DNA of 64,000 bases from NCBI RefSeq assembly GCF_024227715.1, contig NZ_CP100448.1, positions 2,935,655 through 2,999,654 of the forward strand, given 5' to 3'. Position 1 is the stretch's first letter. Every line of letters begins with the position of its first letter. Source of the DNA: Halomarina litorea (GTDB lineage Archaea; Halobacteriota; Halobacteria; Halobacteriales; Haloarculaceae). The translations under genes and the position numbers were made by a program. Under the pieces are notes generated by a model that saw only the letters and a program-made list of their open reading frames with translations, ran no database searches and was not told where the DNA came from. Below are positions 11,878 to 17,161 of this stretch, piece by piece.

Positions 11878-13437
11878 TCAGTCGTTGCTCACGGTGTTGC
11901 TAACGCGCACCTCGCCGTCCGCGTCGTCGGCGTACGAGAGGAGGTCACCGACCGTGTCGACGATGACGGAAGGCTGGACCGCGCTGGTGGCGATGTCCGC
12001 CCGCGTCGCCTCGCCCGTGAGTACGCAGGCCGACAGACAGCCCACCCGTTCGGCCATCGATATCTCCGTCGATAGGCGGTCGCCGACGACGGCGACGTCC
12101 TCGGGGGCGATACCGTCGGTCTCGAGAATGTGGGAGACCATCGCGGGGTCCGGCTTGCCGAAGACGCGCGTCGGTTCGCGGCCGGTCGCCGTCTCCAGGA
12201 GCGCTCCGATAGCCCCGCAGTCCGGCACGAAGCCCTCCGGCGTCGGGCAGACGGTGTCCCCGTGGGCGAGGAGGAACTCGGCACCCTCGCGGATGGCGAG
12301 GGTCGCCCGCCGGACCTTCTCGTAGGTGAGTTCGCGGTCGAACCCCACCACGACGTACTCCGGGTCGTCCTCCTCGACGGCGAACCCCCGGTCTGCCAGG
12401 GCGTCCCGCATCGCCGACGTCCCGACGACGTAGAGGCGCTCGGCCCCTCGCGCTTCCAGGTAGGCGATGACGCCGTCCGTCGAGAGGACGACATCCTCGG
12501 GGGCGGCCGGGATACCGAGTGCGGTCAGCTTCCTCGCGTACTCCGGTTTCCAGGCCGAGGAGTTGTTCGAGAGGAAGTAGACGTCGACGCCGGCCGCCCG
12601 GAGGGCCTCGACGACGTCCGCGGCCCCGTCGAGGAGGGTATCGCCGAGGTAGAGCGTCCCGTCGAGGTCGAAGAAGACTGCCTCCTTGTCGGTCAGCGAG
12701 AACGACCCGAACGTCCGGTCGGCGGCCCGAAGGTCTACCATGTCGTCGACCTCCACCCAGCGCGCACCGCCGATGTCGACGGGGGCGACCTCGCACTCGC
12801 CGAGGACCGCGTCGATGGCCACCTCGGCCCAGGCGTCGTACTGTCCATCGTCGAGGAGTCGGCCCCCCCGGTCGAACAGGCGGGTCGAGAACTCCCGGGA
12901 GAAGCGGTAGGCGTCGATGGAGACGGCGCTCGCGGCTTCCGGCGGGACGTCCTTGGCGATGTGGTCGACGTGGCCGTCTCCGTCGGTCGTCACCTTCATC
13001 GCCTCCTCGGAGTAGGTCCCGTAGTCACACGCGATGGCGCTGTCGGCGTCGCTGTCGAGGAGCGTCTCGACGACACAGGGGTCGAACACGACGTCGCCGT
13101 TGCTCAGGAGGAACGGTTCGCCGGCGAGTTCCTCCCGGGCCTGGTACAGCGAGAACAGGTTGTTCGTGTTGGCGTATCGGTCGTTCTCGACGACCGAGAC
13201 GGAGAGGTCCTCGCGGCTGGCGGCGACCTCCTCGCAGACCGCTCGCGCCCGGTCGGGGAGATAGCCGACGACGACGACGACGTTCGACACCCCGGCGTCG
13301 GCGTAGGCGTGGAGCTGATGGCCGAGGATCGGGGTCCCGGCGACGGGGATACACCCCTTCGGGACGTCGAGGGTGACCGGCCGGAGCCGGGAGCCGATGC
13401 CTGCAGCGAGGACGACGGCAGTGTCGACTTCCTCCAT
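11878..13437 (-). CDS. Nucleotidyltransferase (LicC-like) - HAD-IIA phosphatase fusion
   Basis: A 519-residue two-domain protein. Residues 1-245 form a sugar/alcohol-phosphate nucleotidyltransferase: VVLAAGIGSRLRPVT with PKG Lys27, LSNGDVVFD (113-119), and ANTNNLFSLY (90-99), which is typical of LicC-type cytidylyltransferases acting on phosphocholine, inositol phosphate or related alcohol phosphates. Residues 252-519 form a NagD/GroP-type HAD-IIA phosphatase: FFDLDGTLYLG (256-266), FLSNNSS (288-294), FGKPDPAM and VGDRLSTEI. HAD-IIA members include glycerol-phosphate phosphatases. Its own TATA (GACTAAAT, about 27 nt upstream on this strand) points to a leaderless transcript. Neighbours on the same strand are a GDPD and a glycerophosphotransferase, so a CDP-alcohol or glycerol-phosphate substrate is likely (inference). 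Confidence 0.88.
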   Translation of the reverse strand: MEEVDTAVVLAAGIGSRLRPVTLDVPKGCIPVAGTPILGHQLHAYADAGVSNVVVVVGYLPDRARAVCEEVAASREDLSVSVVENDRYANTNNLFSLYQAREELAGEPFLLSNGDVVFDPCVVETLLDSDADSAIACDYGTYSEEAMKVTTDGDGHVDHIAKDVPPEAASAVSIDAYRFSREFSTRLFDRGGRLLDDGQYDAWAEVAIDAVLGECEVAPVDIGGARWVEVDDMVDLRAADRTFGSFSLTDKEAVFFDLDGTLYLGDTLLDGAADVVEALRAAGVDVYFLSNNSSAWKPEYARKLTALGIPAAPEDVVLSTDGVIAYLEARGAERLYVVGTSAMRDALADRGFAVEEDDPEYVVVGFDRELTYEKVRRATLAIREGAEFLLAHGDTVCPTPEGFVPDCGAIGALLETATGREPTRVFGKPDPAMVSHILETDGIAPEDVAVVGDRLSTEISMAERVGCLSACVLTGEATRADIATSAVQPSVIVDTVGDLLSYADDADGEVRVSNTVSND

Positions 13438-13498
13438 TTACCCACCGAAGGGTCGAGTCGATTTAGTCGTGTTCCCTGCAACACAACTCGATTCGTTC

Positions 13499-14374
13499 CT
13501 ACCGGACCATCGTATCGAGGGGAACGTCGGTGATGAGGCCGTCGACGGCGGTTCCCGCGAACGCGGCAGCGTGCTCCGGCGTCTCGATGGTCCAGACGTT
13601 GACCAGACGCCCCTCCCGGTGGGCGCGGGCGACGACATCGACCGGTTCGTACGGACCGGCGACGTACGCCTCGTCGAACAGGGGCGTCCCCGGAACCATG
13701 TTCCGAGGGACGTGGACCGCCTCGCAGTCGTGTCTGCGGGCGACGGTGAAGCCGTCCTCGATGGAGTCCGAGAGGACGGCGGCGAGCGGAACGTCGGGGT
13801 CGGCGTCGCGGACCGCACCGAGCGCACCTTCGAAGAACGAGGAGACGAGGAGGTCGTGGCCGGAGGCCCCGACGAGGGCGAGCACCCGGTCGACGAACGG
13901 GCGCCAGTCCCGCCGACTCCGCTTGAGGGCGTCTTGGGTGAGGAGTCCCTCGGGCCCCGGGTCGACGCCGGGGTGTTTGAGTTCGGCGTTCAGCGCCACC
14001 GACGCGGGAAGCGCTTCGACGACCTCTTCGAGGAGCGGTATCGGCTGGCCGCTGTCGAGGACGTCGAGCGACCGCAGTTCGTCGAGCGGGGTCTCCCAGA
14101 CCGCCTGACCCTGTCGCGACGGGTCGGCGTCCGTCACCCGGTCGAGGGTCCCGTCGTGGAAGACGACAGGGACCCCCTCGGCGCTCGGCATCACGTCGAT
14201 TTCGACCATCCCGGCCGACGGGACCGATCCGCCCGTGGTCGAACCGCGCACCGCCTCGAGCGTGTTCTCCGGGAACACGCCCGCGAACCCCCGGTGAGCG
14301 ATGGTGGTGAAACCCCCGTCGCCGGGCGAATCAGGAGGAGCGCCCGACGTCACAGTCGAGTCAGCGCGCTGCAT
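13499..14374 (-). CDS. Glycerophosphodiester phosphodiesterase
   Basis: A 291-residue GDPD-family TIM barrel. Catalytic features are IAHRGF (His27, Arg28), PENT (Glu36), VEID (Glu58, Asp60) and VVFHDGTLDRVT (His73). It hydrolyses glycerophosphodiesters to glycerol phosphate and an alcohol using a divalent cation. I choose ATG 14374; a TTG one codon earlier is possible. There is no clear signal peptide, so it is probably cytosolic. A TATA box about 27 nt upstream (minus-strand CTTAATA) suggests its own leaderless mRNA although it lies between two related genes on the same strand. Confidence 0.93.
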   Translation of the reverse strand: MQRADSTVTSGAPPDSPGDGGFTTIAHRGFAGVFPENTLEAVRGSTTGGSVPSAGMVEIDVMPSAEGVPVVFHDGTLDRVTDADPSRQGQAVWETPLDELRSLDVLDSGQPIPLLEEVVEALPASVALNAELKHPGVDPGPEGLLTQDALKRSRRDWRPFVDRVLALVGASGHDLLVSSFFEGALGAVRDADPDVPLAAVLSDSIEDGFTVARRHDCEAVHVPRNMVPGTPLFDEAYVAGPYEPVDVVARAHREGRLVNVWTIETPEHAAAFAGTAVDGLITDVPLDTMVR

Positions 14375-14397
14375 CAACCGGAGAGAACACGCACGGC

Positions 14398-14405
14398 GTA
14401 TTAAG
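14398..14405 (-). promoter_or_regulatory. TATA box of the GDPD gene
   Basis: On the minus strand CTCTTAATAC lies 24-31 nt before ATG 14374. It is one of the few AT-rich strings here and supports an independent leaderless transcript. Confidence 0.5.
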
Positions 14406-14469
14406 AGTCACTACTACGAGTATGTCCTGATTCCCCGCTAGACTGTGCGCTAGTTTGACAGGGGGAGCG

Positions 14470-15669
14470 CTACTGGTCGCGTTCTCGACCGGAGAGTGCC
14501 CGGACGGCCTCGAAGACCGTCGCCGACCGCGACCCGGTCGCGTCGACGAGAAACGCCTCCCGCAGCGCGCTCCGGCGGGCCGCGTACGGGTCGGCCTCGA
14601 TGGCGTCGGTGAGGCGGGCGAGAAGCGAGTCGGTGTCGACCGCGACCGGACCGGGAACGAACGTCTCGTAGTCGTAGTAGAACCCCCGCTCCGCCCGGTA
14701 GGTCTCGAGGTCCGGCGCGTAGAACACGACCGGGCGGTCGAGCAGGAGGAAATCGAGGAACACCGACGAGTAGTCGGTGACGAGGACGTCGAAGGCGTCC
14801 AGTAGCGGGTAGACGTCGTCGACCCCCTCCAGCGTCGAGACGTGGTCGAGGCCGTCGACGGACGAGACTCGCTCGAACGGGTGGGGCTTGACGAGGAGTC
14901 TGGCACCGACGGCGTCCAGGCGGCGGTCGACCGCCTCGAAGTCGACGCGGTCTGCGAGGTCTGCGCCCGGTTCACGGAAGGTCGGCAGGTAGAGGACGAG
15001 CGGTCCGTCCGCCCCCGCGGCGGCGAGTCGCTCCTCGACGTCCGGGTCGGACGTGGGGTCCTCGTCCGGACCGGCCCCCACCAGCGGGTCGTGGCGAGGG
15101 TAGCCGAGCACCCGGATGCGGTCAGGCGAGACGCCGAGGCCGGTGTGGAACTGGTGGACGGCCATCGGGGACGGGACGACCAGCGCGTCGAACCGGCGTG
15201 CGAGCGCGCGGTGGGCCCAGCGGACCACACGAGGGGCCCGTCGCAGTTCCGCGTCGAACCCGATGGTCTTGACGGGGAGCCCGTGCCACAGGTTGACCAG
15301 CGTCGCTCCGCCGATGGCCCCGGTGCCCACGTCGCGCGGTCCGTGTGTCACCACCGCGACGCCGGCCCGCAGTCGGAGCCACGTCCCCCGGACCGACCGG
15401 ACGCGGTGGGCGTCGTAGCCCGCCTTGCGGAGCGCAGTCACCGTCTCGCGGTCCTTCGAGAGCCACACGGCCCTCACCTCGGGGACACCCTCTGCGTGGA
15501 GGAAGAGGTACTTCGCGTTGTCGACGAACCCCGAACCGAGTCCGGCACCGAACACCCAGAGGTCCGGGTCGCGCGCGTAGAACCGTGAGAGGAACGCCGT
15601 CACCGCGTGGCGAAGCACCCTGAACAACAGCGACGCGTGGTCGTACCACCGGCGAGTCCTGTCGGTCAT
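14470..15669 (-). CDS. CDP-glycerol glycerophosphotransferase family protein (TagB/TagF-like)
   Basis: A 399-residue member of the CDP-glycerol:glycerophosphotransferase family. Conserved pieces are NLWHGLPVKTIGFD, VLGYPRHD, LVLYLPTFRE, LLVKPHPFE and, near the C terminus, TDYSSVFLDFLLLDRPVVFY. In Gram-positive bacteria such enzymes add or polymerise glycerol phosphate from CDP-glycerol in teichoic acids; archaeal members have unknown acceptors and may decorate glycans or lipids. There are hydrophobic patches near the N terminus but no clear signal peptide, consistent with a peripheral membrane enzyme. A minus-strand TTATTC about 30 nt before the start fits a promoter. The GDPD and cytidylyltransferase-phosphatase genes follow on the same strand. 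Confidence 0.9.
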   Translation of the reverse strand: MTDRTRRWYDHASLLFRVLRHAVTAFLSRFYARDPDLWVFGAGLGSGFVDNAKYLFLHAEGVPEVRAVWLSKDRETVTALRKAGYDAHRVRSVRGTWLRLRAGVAVVTHGPRDVGTGAIGGATLVNLWHGLPVKTIGFDAELRRAPRVVRWAHRALARRFDALVVPSPMAVHQFHTGLGVSPDRIRVLGYPRHDPLVGAGPDEDPTSDPDVEERLAAAGADGPLVLYLPTFREPGADLADRVDFEAVDRRLDAVGARLLVKPHPFERVSSVDGLDHVSTLEGVDDVYPLLDAFDVLVTDYSSVFLDFLLLDRPVVFYAPDLETYRAERGFYYDYETFVPGPVAVDTDSLLARLTDAIEADPYAARRSALREAFLVDATGSRSATVFEAVRALSGRERDQ

Positions 15670-15830
15670 CCCTGTCCGGTCCGAGGGGAGAGCGGCGAAT
15701 AAGTGGGTGGGGGAGTCGCCGTCGACGGGGACGGACGGGACCCGCGCTCGGAGACGTTCGGGACTGTCCGGTCGCTACGCGCGTCGAGTCGGTGGCAAAC
15801 GACTTAACGGACCCCGACGTATCGGCGCGC

Positions 15831-16245: not shown

Positions 16246-16893
16246 ATGCTCAGCTACGTCACCACCAACCCCGGCAAGGTCCGCGAGGCCGAACAGTACC
16301 TGGAGGAGGTCCGGGCGGTCGACTTCGACTACACGGAGATTCAGGCCTCCGAACTCGGTCCCATCGCCGCCCGCGGCGCCCGCGAGGCGTTCGCCCACGT
16401 CGGCGGCCCGGTCATCGTCGACGACGCCGGCCTGTTCGTTGACGACCTGGACGGCTTCCCCGGCCCCTACTCGGCGTACGTCGAGGACACCCTCGGCGTC
16501 GAGCGGGTGGGCGAACTGGCGCGACAGGAGGGCACGCTCCGCGCGCACTTCCGGTGTGTCATCGCCTACTGCGACGGCGAGGGGTTCGCCGCGACGCCCG
16601 AACCCGTCGACCGGGGCGAACGGCGGGGGCAGGACCTCGCGGCGGACGACCGCGCGACGGCCAGCACCGACGACACCGTCGACGCCGGCGACGTCCCCGT
16701 CAAACTGTTCGAGGGGTCGGTCCCGGGGCGCATCGTCGAACCGCGCGGCGAGGGCGGGTTCGGCTACGACCCCATCTTCGAGCACGACGGGGAGACGCTC
16801 GCCGAGATGAGCACCGAGGAGAAGAACGCCGTCTCACACCGCGGGCGTGCGCTCGCGAAGTTTGGGGAGTGGTTCCAAGCGCGAACGCAGTGA
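16246..16893 (+). CDS. rdgB: XTP/dITP pyrophosphatase (RdgB/HAM1 family)
   Basis: A 215-residue non-canonical purine NTP pyrophosphatase that removes dITP and XTP from the nucleotide pool. Motifs are YVTTNPGKVREAEQYL at the N terminus, VIVDDAGLFVDDLDGFPGPYS, EGSVPGRIV and GFGYDPIFE, then TEEKNAVSHRGRAL. A hydrophilic insertion at about residues 127-161 is larger than in most homologues. The last dozen codons run into a 111-bp tandem repeat, so the native C terminus may have been altered when the repeat arose. Confidence 0.95.
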   Translation: MLSYVTTNPGKVREAEQYLEEVRAVDFDYTEIQASELGPIAARGAREAFAHVGGPVIVDDAGLFVDDLDGFPGPYSAYVEDTLGVERVGELARQEGTLRAHFRCVIAYCDGEGFAATPEPVDRGERRGQDLAADDRATASTDDTVDAGDVPVKLFEGSVPGRIVEPRGEGGFGYDPIFEHDGETLAEMSTEEKNAVSHRGRALAKFGEWFQARTQ

Positions 16894-17161
16894 GCGCTTG
16901 GAACGAGACGAGACGCAGCGCGAGCGGAGCGAGCGACCGTCTCGGCATAGTTCGCCGAGCGCCAGCGAGGCGAGGGGGTTCGCTTGCGAACGCGAACGCA
17001 GTGAGCGCTTGGAACGAGACGAGACGCAGCGCGAGCGGAGCGAGCGACCGTCTCGGCATAGTTCGCCGAGCGCCAGCGAGGCGAGGGGGTTCGCTTGCGA
17101 ACGCGAACGCAGTGAGCGCTTGGAACGAGACGAGACGCAGCGCGAGCGGAGCGAGCGACCG
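16881..17161. repeat. 111-bp perfect tandem repeat, 2.5 copies
   Basis: Two identical 111-bp units (16881-16991 and 16992-17102) are followed by a partial third (17103-17161). Each begins GCGAACGCAGTGAGC and contains GCGAGCGGAGCGAGC and the hairpin GTTCGC-TT-GCGAAC. The unit is 37 codons long, so all frames stay open through it and give spurious repetitive proteins. The first unit contains the rdgB stop codon. The internal strings resemble the degenerate GAACGNAGTGAGC-type intergenic sequence common in haloarchaea. Confidence 0.95.

Follow-up and report, generated by a model that had tools for sequence, protein, structure and literature searches.

Most of what is known about decorating cell surfaces with glycerol phosphate comes from bacterial walls. 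Archaea hold two enantiomers of glycerol phosphate, sn-glycerol-1-phosphate for their lipids and sn-glycerol-3-phosphate made via glycerol kinase, so that the enantiomer used by an archaeal nucleotidyltransferase (NTase) would tell which pool feeds the surface. A glycerol-phosphate cytidylyltransferase activity that prefers sn-glycerol-1-phosphate has been reported in Archaeoglobus fulgidus lysate, with no gene assigned (PMC8262930), and for Mycobacterium tuberculosis a pathway has been proposed in which phospholipid head groups are processed first by the glycerophosphodiester phosphodiesterase (GDPD) GlpQ1 and then by Rv1692 (PMC12722247). Here we describe a module of three genes at 11878-15669, on the minus strand of a 64,000-nucleotide stretch of Halomarina litorea (NZ_CP100448.1, 2,935,655-2,999,654; the window), which encode a TagF-like transferase, a GDPD and an NTase fused to a HAD-IIA phosphatase (NT-HAD). 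We give about an even chance to the reading that they form a cytosolic cytidine diphosphate (CDP)-alcohol route that tailors a surface molecule, probably via CDP-glycerol. A first-pass annotation had read three adjacent same-strand genes here; all three open reading frames were found, and Pfam and NCBIfam gave the same family labels (LicC-type NTase with HAD-IIA, GDPD, TagF-like) as it had. The features are:

14470..15669, minus strand: TagF/TarF-like GT-B transferase (PF04464), 399 amino acids; Pfam E 1.1e-59
13499..14374, minus strand: GDPD (PF03009), putatively cytoplasmic, 291 amino acids from ATG; Pfam E 3e-27
11878..13437, minus strand: NT-HAD bifunctional fusion, 519 amino acids, ATG start; Pfam, NCBIfam and PDB matches
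12694..13437, minus strand: NTase domain of LicC/PntC type, residues ~1-246; invariant columns of alignment A2 mapped to PntC and LicC
11878..12691, minus strand: HAD-IIA phosphatase domain, residues ~250-500; motifs invariant in alignment A1

Conservation of the module

Across 293 haloarchaeal genomes of the same order, the full-length NT-HAD fusion was found in 36, which belong to four families (f1, f4, f5 and f17) with unlike flanking genes. TagF homologues occur in 61 of the 293: every fusion genome carries one (36/36), against 25 of the 257 others, and in 31 of the 36 it lies at most 5 kb from NT-HAD on the same contig. The GDPD gene mostly stands between TagF and NT-HAD, and f5 genomes have it outside the pair and on the opposite strand, still adjacent; 34 of the top 47 GDPD matches in the order adjoin NT-HAD or TagF, and the module GDPDs score above the second GDPD of Halomarina litorea itself (47% identical). 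In a tree of TagF-like proteins, those borne by modules fall in one group (support 99/96), which also holds two TagF whose NT-HAD is elsewhere and one that has no adjoining fusion. A chance neighbourhood is ruled out by the co-occurrence and by a linkage that persists after rearrangement. The module is real and conserved, and the triplet that had been proposed from a single locus recurs as clusters in four haloarchaeal families. An SDR gene (c6) near several modules was rejected as a member, SDRs being too common for its presence to count.

The module is in fact larger than this triplet. A gene for an AP_endonuc_2 (xylose-isomerase-like) TIM barrel adjoins it in 28 of the 36 fusion genomes, all of them f4 and f17, as counted by hand from neighbourhood tables:

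L041, 13439-14221 (counterparts in 28 genomes): gene for the AP_endonuc_2 TIM barrel, linked with NT-HAD in f4 and f17 haloarchaea

It stands downstream of NT-HAD in f17 and upstream of TagF in f4, and in four genomes whose TagF lies on a different contig (G017, G041, G161 and G176) it remains beside NT-HAD. The Halomarina litorea genome has no match to it at E 1e-30, and f5 genomes are without one adjoining the module. Its best NCBIfam match is the CbiR phosphodiesterase, at 84.3 bits and below the equivalog cut-off of 105, followed by sugar epimerases; the nearest solved structure is MJ1311.

NTase and TagF genes are also paired where the NTase is unfused. In other haloarchaea the direct neighbour of TagF is an NTase of ~240 residues (L034, L035, L042, L043, L050 and L051); the two genes overlap in several of these pairs, which sit in glycan-type surroundings. 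A scan of genome contigs, used for neighbourhoods only, gave mostly actinobacterial NTases among the matches listed; in Actinobacteria, the NTase and TagF genes of Blastococcus overlap, an NTase (L055) follows a PF04464 gene, and in L090 the NTase precedes an ABC-2 membrane exporter gene, the neighbour that an unfused Schumannella NTase has. Because unfused NTases stand beside TagF in both haloarchaea and Actinobacteria, NTase and TagF are the core pair, with a linkage independent of HAD and GDPD.

Catalytic domains and the proposed route

NT-HAD matches PF12804 (2.7e-15), PF13344 (1.9e-23) and PF13242 within one protein, with NTP_transf_3 at residues 7-136 and HAD-IIA (Hydrolase_6 and Hydrolase_like) at 254-499, and its AlphaFold (AF2) model is confident (pLDDT 89.5, pTM 0.85). 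We aligned ten full-length fusions (A1, 55-70% identity) and 16 NTase domains (A2), the latter also used as a profile. With this profile the nearest solved relatives are PntC (4.5e-31), LicC (1.8e-29) and IPCT (5.7e-22), CTP:alcohol-phosphate/phosphonate cytidylyltransferases whose substrates are aminoethylphosphonate, phosphocholine and inositol-1-phosphate, respectively; an inositol-1-P cytidylyltransferase model is also among the NCBIfam matches of NT-HAD. These relatives, and the direct pairing of NTases with TagF-type genes, agree with the earlier assignment of CDP-alcohol synthesis to this family, and by analogy with them the NTase would be specific for CTP.

The core of the active site is kept. 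R17 and K27 of the motif GxGSR-x9-PK, together with K162 and the metal ligands D115 and E229, correspond to PntC R15, K25, K153 and D106 and to the LicC metal ligand E216, and are invariant or nearly so in A2 (HMMER alignments); alanine mutants of the three basic PntC residues retain <10% activity (PMC6697681). On the substrate side, E205 corresponds to PntC E196, and PntC E104, the equivalent of LicC D105 and positioned to bind the substrate amine (PMC6697681), is replaced by N113 in all 16 domains. The column of the LicC Trp (1jyk position 156) holds Ala or Glu; the signature GxG(S/T)R...PK, the K153 equivalent and the metal Asp/Glu are present and the acidic amine-binding residue and the aromatic box are absent. 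Judged from these columns, the NTase is LicC/PntC-like in fold and chemistry only, not by substrate. The exchange of the amine-binding acid for an invariant Asn and the loss of the Trp speak against choline or aminoethylphosphonate and in favour of an uncharged polyol phosphate, suggesting, from alignment and not from docking, that the substrate is an uncharged alcohol phosphate.

The NTase family also extends beyond these loci. Stand-alone NTases of 245-250 amino acids occur in methanogen-type genomes (L142-L146, L148 and L153), not beside TagF, as holds for most of the methanogen members; the family is therefore wider than the module pathway, and these members likely make another CDP-alcohol product. 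In a non-haloarchaeal NT-HAD of the same phylum (L151, 4049-5551), the NTase half has degenerate motifs, with AANDNPQL in place of AAGxGSRL and GD missing, and the HAD motifs are intact; this NTase domain is possibly dead. Two proteins of other archaea (L150, 5945-7972; L158, 6095-7948) join the NTase to long C-terminal parts (675 and 617 amino acids), a size that is, we presume, reminiscent of PntC-aminotransferase fusions.

The phosphatase half of the fusion carries the HAD-IIA motifs D257-x-D259-G-T, N291-N-S-S, G427-K428-P and G452-D453-R, all invariant in A1, shows the C2 cap fold by Foldseek and exceeds the TIGR01460 cut-off (127.7 vs 100.15 bits). Its closest solved structure is TM1742 (1vjr, E 5e-54), and the nearest match with a named physiological substrate is the glycerol-phosphate phosphatase Rv1692 (4i9f/4i9g). 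The Pfam match of the GDPD covers residues 28-286; compared with PDB GDPDs, the catalytic and metal motifs HRG, PENT, E58-x-D60, H73-D and E131-x-K are invariant in eight module GDPDs, and the protein should be cytoplasmic since no signal peptide is apparent by eye. A GDPD next to an Rv1692-like HAD-IIA domain recalls the proposed GlpQ1 to Rv1692 route (PMC12722247), and the pair might simply salvage glycerophosphodiesters to glycerol and phosphate, with the NTase and the TagF-like protein serving a separate purpose. We consider this improbable: all 36 genomes carry the phosphatase joined to the NTase, and each has a TagF homologue; most haloarchaeal genomes have further GDPD and HAD-IIA paralogues at other loci, so that a dedicated salvage pair could do without these partners.

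The third component is a clear member of PF04464 (202.7 bits against a cut-off of 22.1; Glyphos_transf, residues 31-383), the only one in the Halomarina litorea genome, and matches PDB TagF 3l7i at E 9.7e-23. Its confident AlphaFold model (pLDDT 87.9, pTM 0.89) has an N-terminal helix (2-27) and then a single GT-B unit within its 399 residues. The 20 best PDB matches of this model by Foldseek are TagF, TarL, Bcs3 and Cps3D, with TagF the best, and the top fold matches are CDP-glycerol or CDP-ribitol enzymes. In an alignment of 16 relatives including Blastococcus (A3), the invariant columns are H129, D139, H263, D299-Y-S-S and R312-P. H129 aligns with TagF H444 (3l7j, the H444N variant, has N in that column) and H263 is the second catalytic His, where the phmmer alignment is one residue off; the loss of catalytic residues that would have spoken against the transferase is thus not seen. 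In-frame TGA recoding in the TagF of one genus was considered and rejected, the L040 terminal stop lying inside the aligned range.

The first-pass annotation had called the cluster teichoic-acid-like, which holds for the CDP-alcohol NTase family and the TagF-type transferase and fails as a strict label. The 98%-complete Halomarina litorea genome has no match to TagO (PF00953), TagA (PF03808) or LCP (PF03816), and no TagD-type HIGH-family enzyme above cut-off (two weak matches, the best 25.6 vs 165.4 bits), which leaves the NTase as the sole CDP-glycerol synthase candidate seen in the genome. Insofar as these four families are what defines it, a full wall-teichoic-acid pathway is excluded, which leaves CDP-alcohol activation and transfer. 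A genuine polymer pathway, with poly-glycerol-phosphate built on a TagO/TagA-type linkage unit, could draw on the TagF and TarL polymerases within PF04464 and on TagF as the best fold match. It is very unlikely, given the missing linkage families, the absence of any glycan cluster, export or glycosyltransferase gene adjoining the module genes at the Halomarina litorea locus, and a single-domain transferase of ~400 amino acids, the size of TarF/TagB, for which a polymerase is not indicated: its nearest NCBIfam model is TarF, ahead of TarL/TarB, yet far below any equivalog cut-off.

From gene content, conservation, folds and catalytic residues, we propose the following route. The NTase domain would move CMP from CTP onto a small neutral alcohol phosphate, most likely glycerol phosphate, to give CDP-glycerol. 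The TagF/TarF-like enzyme, at the inner membrane face, would then take the phospho-alcohol off its CDP donor and attach it, in one or a few rounds, to a hydroxyl group on an acceptor such as a glycolipid or lipid-linked glycan. The cytoplasmic GDPD may release glycerol phosphate from glycerophosphodiesters, feeding the first step or recycling products, and the fused HAD-IIA domain may dephosphorylate excess or wrong phospho-alcohol, or a bisphosphate precursor; the TIM barrel of relatives would be a phosphodiesterase or epimerase for the same pool. The alcohol, its stereochemistry, the direction of GDPD and HAD, the acceptor and the localisation are all inferred, glycerol being our best guess. 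The CDP-glycerol route is favoured by the constant presence of TagF in fusion genomes and by module GDPDs that outrank their paralogues, and glycerol by the nearness of the HAD domain to Rv1692, which acts after a GDPD in the M. tuberculosis proposal (PMC12722247).

The same CDP-alcohol logic may instead serve another alcohol, a ribitol-, inositol- or ethanolamine-type phosphate or a phosphonate, which is possible but less probable. The substrates of PntC, LicC and IPCT, the inositol-1-P cytidylyltransferase model and the membership of TarL (CDP-ribitol) in PF04464 all lean this way; the amine-site Asn and the Trp to Ala/Glu change, however, make choline and aminoethylphosphonate unlikely, no ribitol- or inositol-forming gene is in the module, and GDPD and the Rv1692-like HAD point to glycerol. 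Several points weigh against the CDP-glycerol route itself. Ribitol, inositol, choline and phosphonates are further substrates within the NTase and PF04464 families, and the amine-site Asn, while it would disfavour charged alcohols, does not single out glycerol. A fused phosphatase would undo, in a futile cycle, the work of a kinase-like synthetase on the same phospho-alcohol unless the two were regulated. TagF lies on a contig other than that of NT-HAD in G017, G041, G161 and G176 and 27 kb away in G162, and its separation in G017, G041, G161 and G162 means that contiguity is not obligatory; the co-occurrence counts, moreover, ignore the shared ancestry of the genomes.

Promoters and flanking features

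TATA-like elements, read from the sequence, precede each gene of the module:

15698..15703, minus strand: TATA-like CTTATT, 29-34 bases upstream of the TagF-like start
14399..14405, minus strand: TATA-like CTTAATA, 25-31 bases upstream of the GDPD start
13461..13467, minus strand: TATA-like ACTAAAT, 24-30 bases upstream of the NT-HAD start

They fall at the A+T peak of the window genes as a whole (0.63 at -27 vs ~0.33 elsewhere), and two congeners have a similar element at much the same spacing from the GDPD start (L032, TTTAATA; L033, CTTAATA), which makes leaderless transcription of each gene plausible. For the GDPD, the ATG at 14374 is the best start, with a TTG one codon upstream at 14377. 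In the window genus the module is flanked by a Kae1-Bud32 gene and an ITPase-like gene, and the idea that the module lies inside a glycan island was dropped for this genus. Just beyond the ITPase-like gene, at 16880-17161, a 111-base unit is repeated in tandem without a mismatch (2.5 copies, 100% matches), and one frame of the repeat encodes a repeated ERSERLERDETQRERSERP-type peptide.

Comparison with known systems

No paper on haloarchaeal PF04464 enzymes was found in the literature searched, an absence that is weak evidence. If the proposed route is true, CDP-alcohol surface tailoring is added to haloarchaea, as a four-gene set open to deletion in laboratory strains, and the A. fulgidus activity gains a sequence candidate (PMC8262930). 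That activity matches the one predicted for the NTase and has no sequence attached, and the NTase family is a candidate source for it. A bolder proposal, which we hold as doubtful, gives the NTase the role of the archaeal glycerol-phosphate cytidylyltransferase that still lacks a gene, with the archaeal enantiomer sn-glycerol-1-phosphate as its substrate. Glycerol phosphate freed from archaeal lipid head groups would then supply the TagF-like enzyme, which would place mirror-image glycerol-phosphate groups on the surface glycans or lipids of haloarchaea.

With LicC and PntC the module NTase shares the fold, the GxG(S/T)R-PK motif, the K153 equivalent and the metal ligands; it differs in the Asn at the amine-binding acid, in the missing aromatic-box Trp and in its C-terminal partner, a HAD-IIA phosphatase where LicC and PntC have an aminotransferase or none. 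The pairing of HAD-IIA and GDPD functions resembles Rv1692 and GlpQ1 in polar-head recycling by M. tuberculosis, whereas in NT-HAD the phosphatase shares a polypeptide with a cytidylyltransferase and goes together with a TagF-type transferase. The fourth gene has the cobamide-remodelling phosphodiesterase CbiR as its best NCBIfam match, unlike which it scores below the equivalog cut-off and has no cobamide context. The TagF-like protein has the GT-B fold, both catalytic His, the DYSS donor motif and the CDP-alcohol donor family in common with TarF, TagF and TarL, from which it is set apart by ~20% identity in structure alignment, by the lack of TagO/TagA/LCP partners and by a host without peptidoglycan. 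Within the literature searched the module is undescribed, and it varies known CDP-alcohol tailoring systems.

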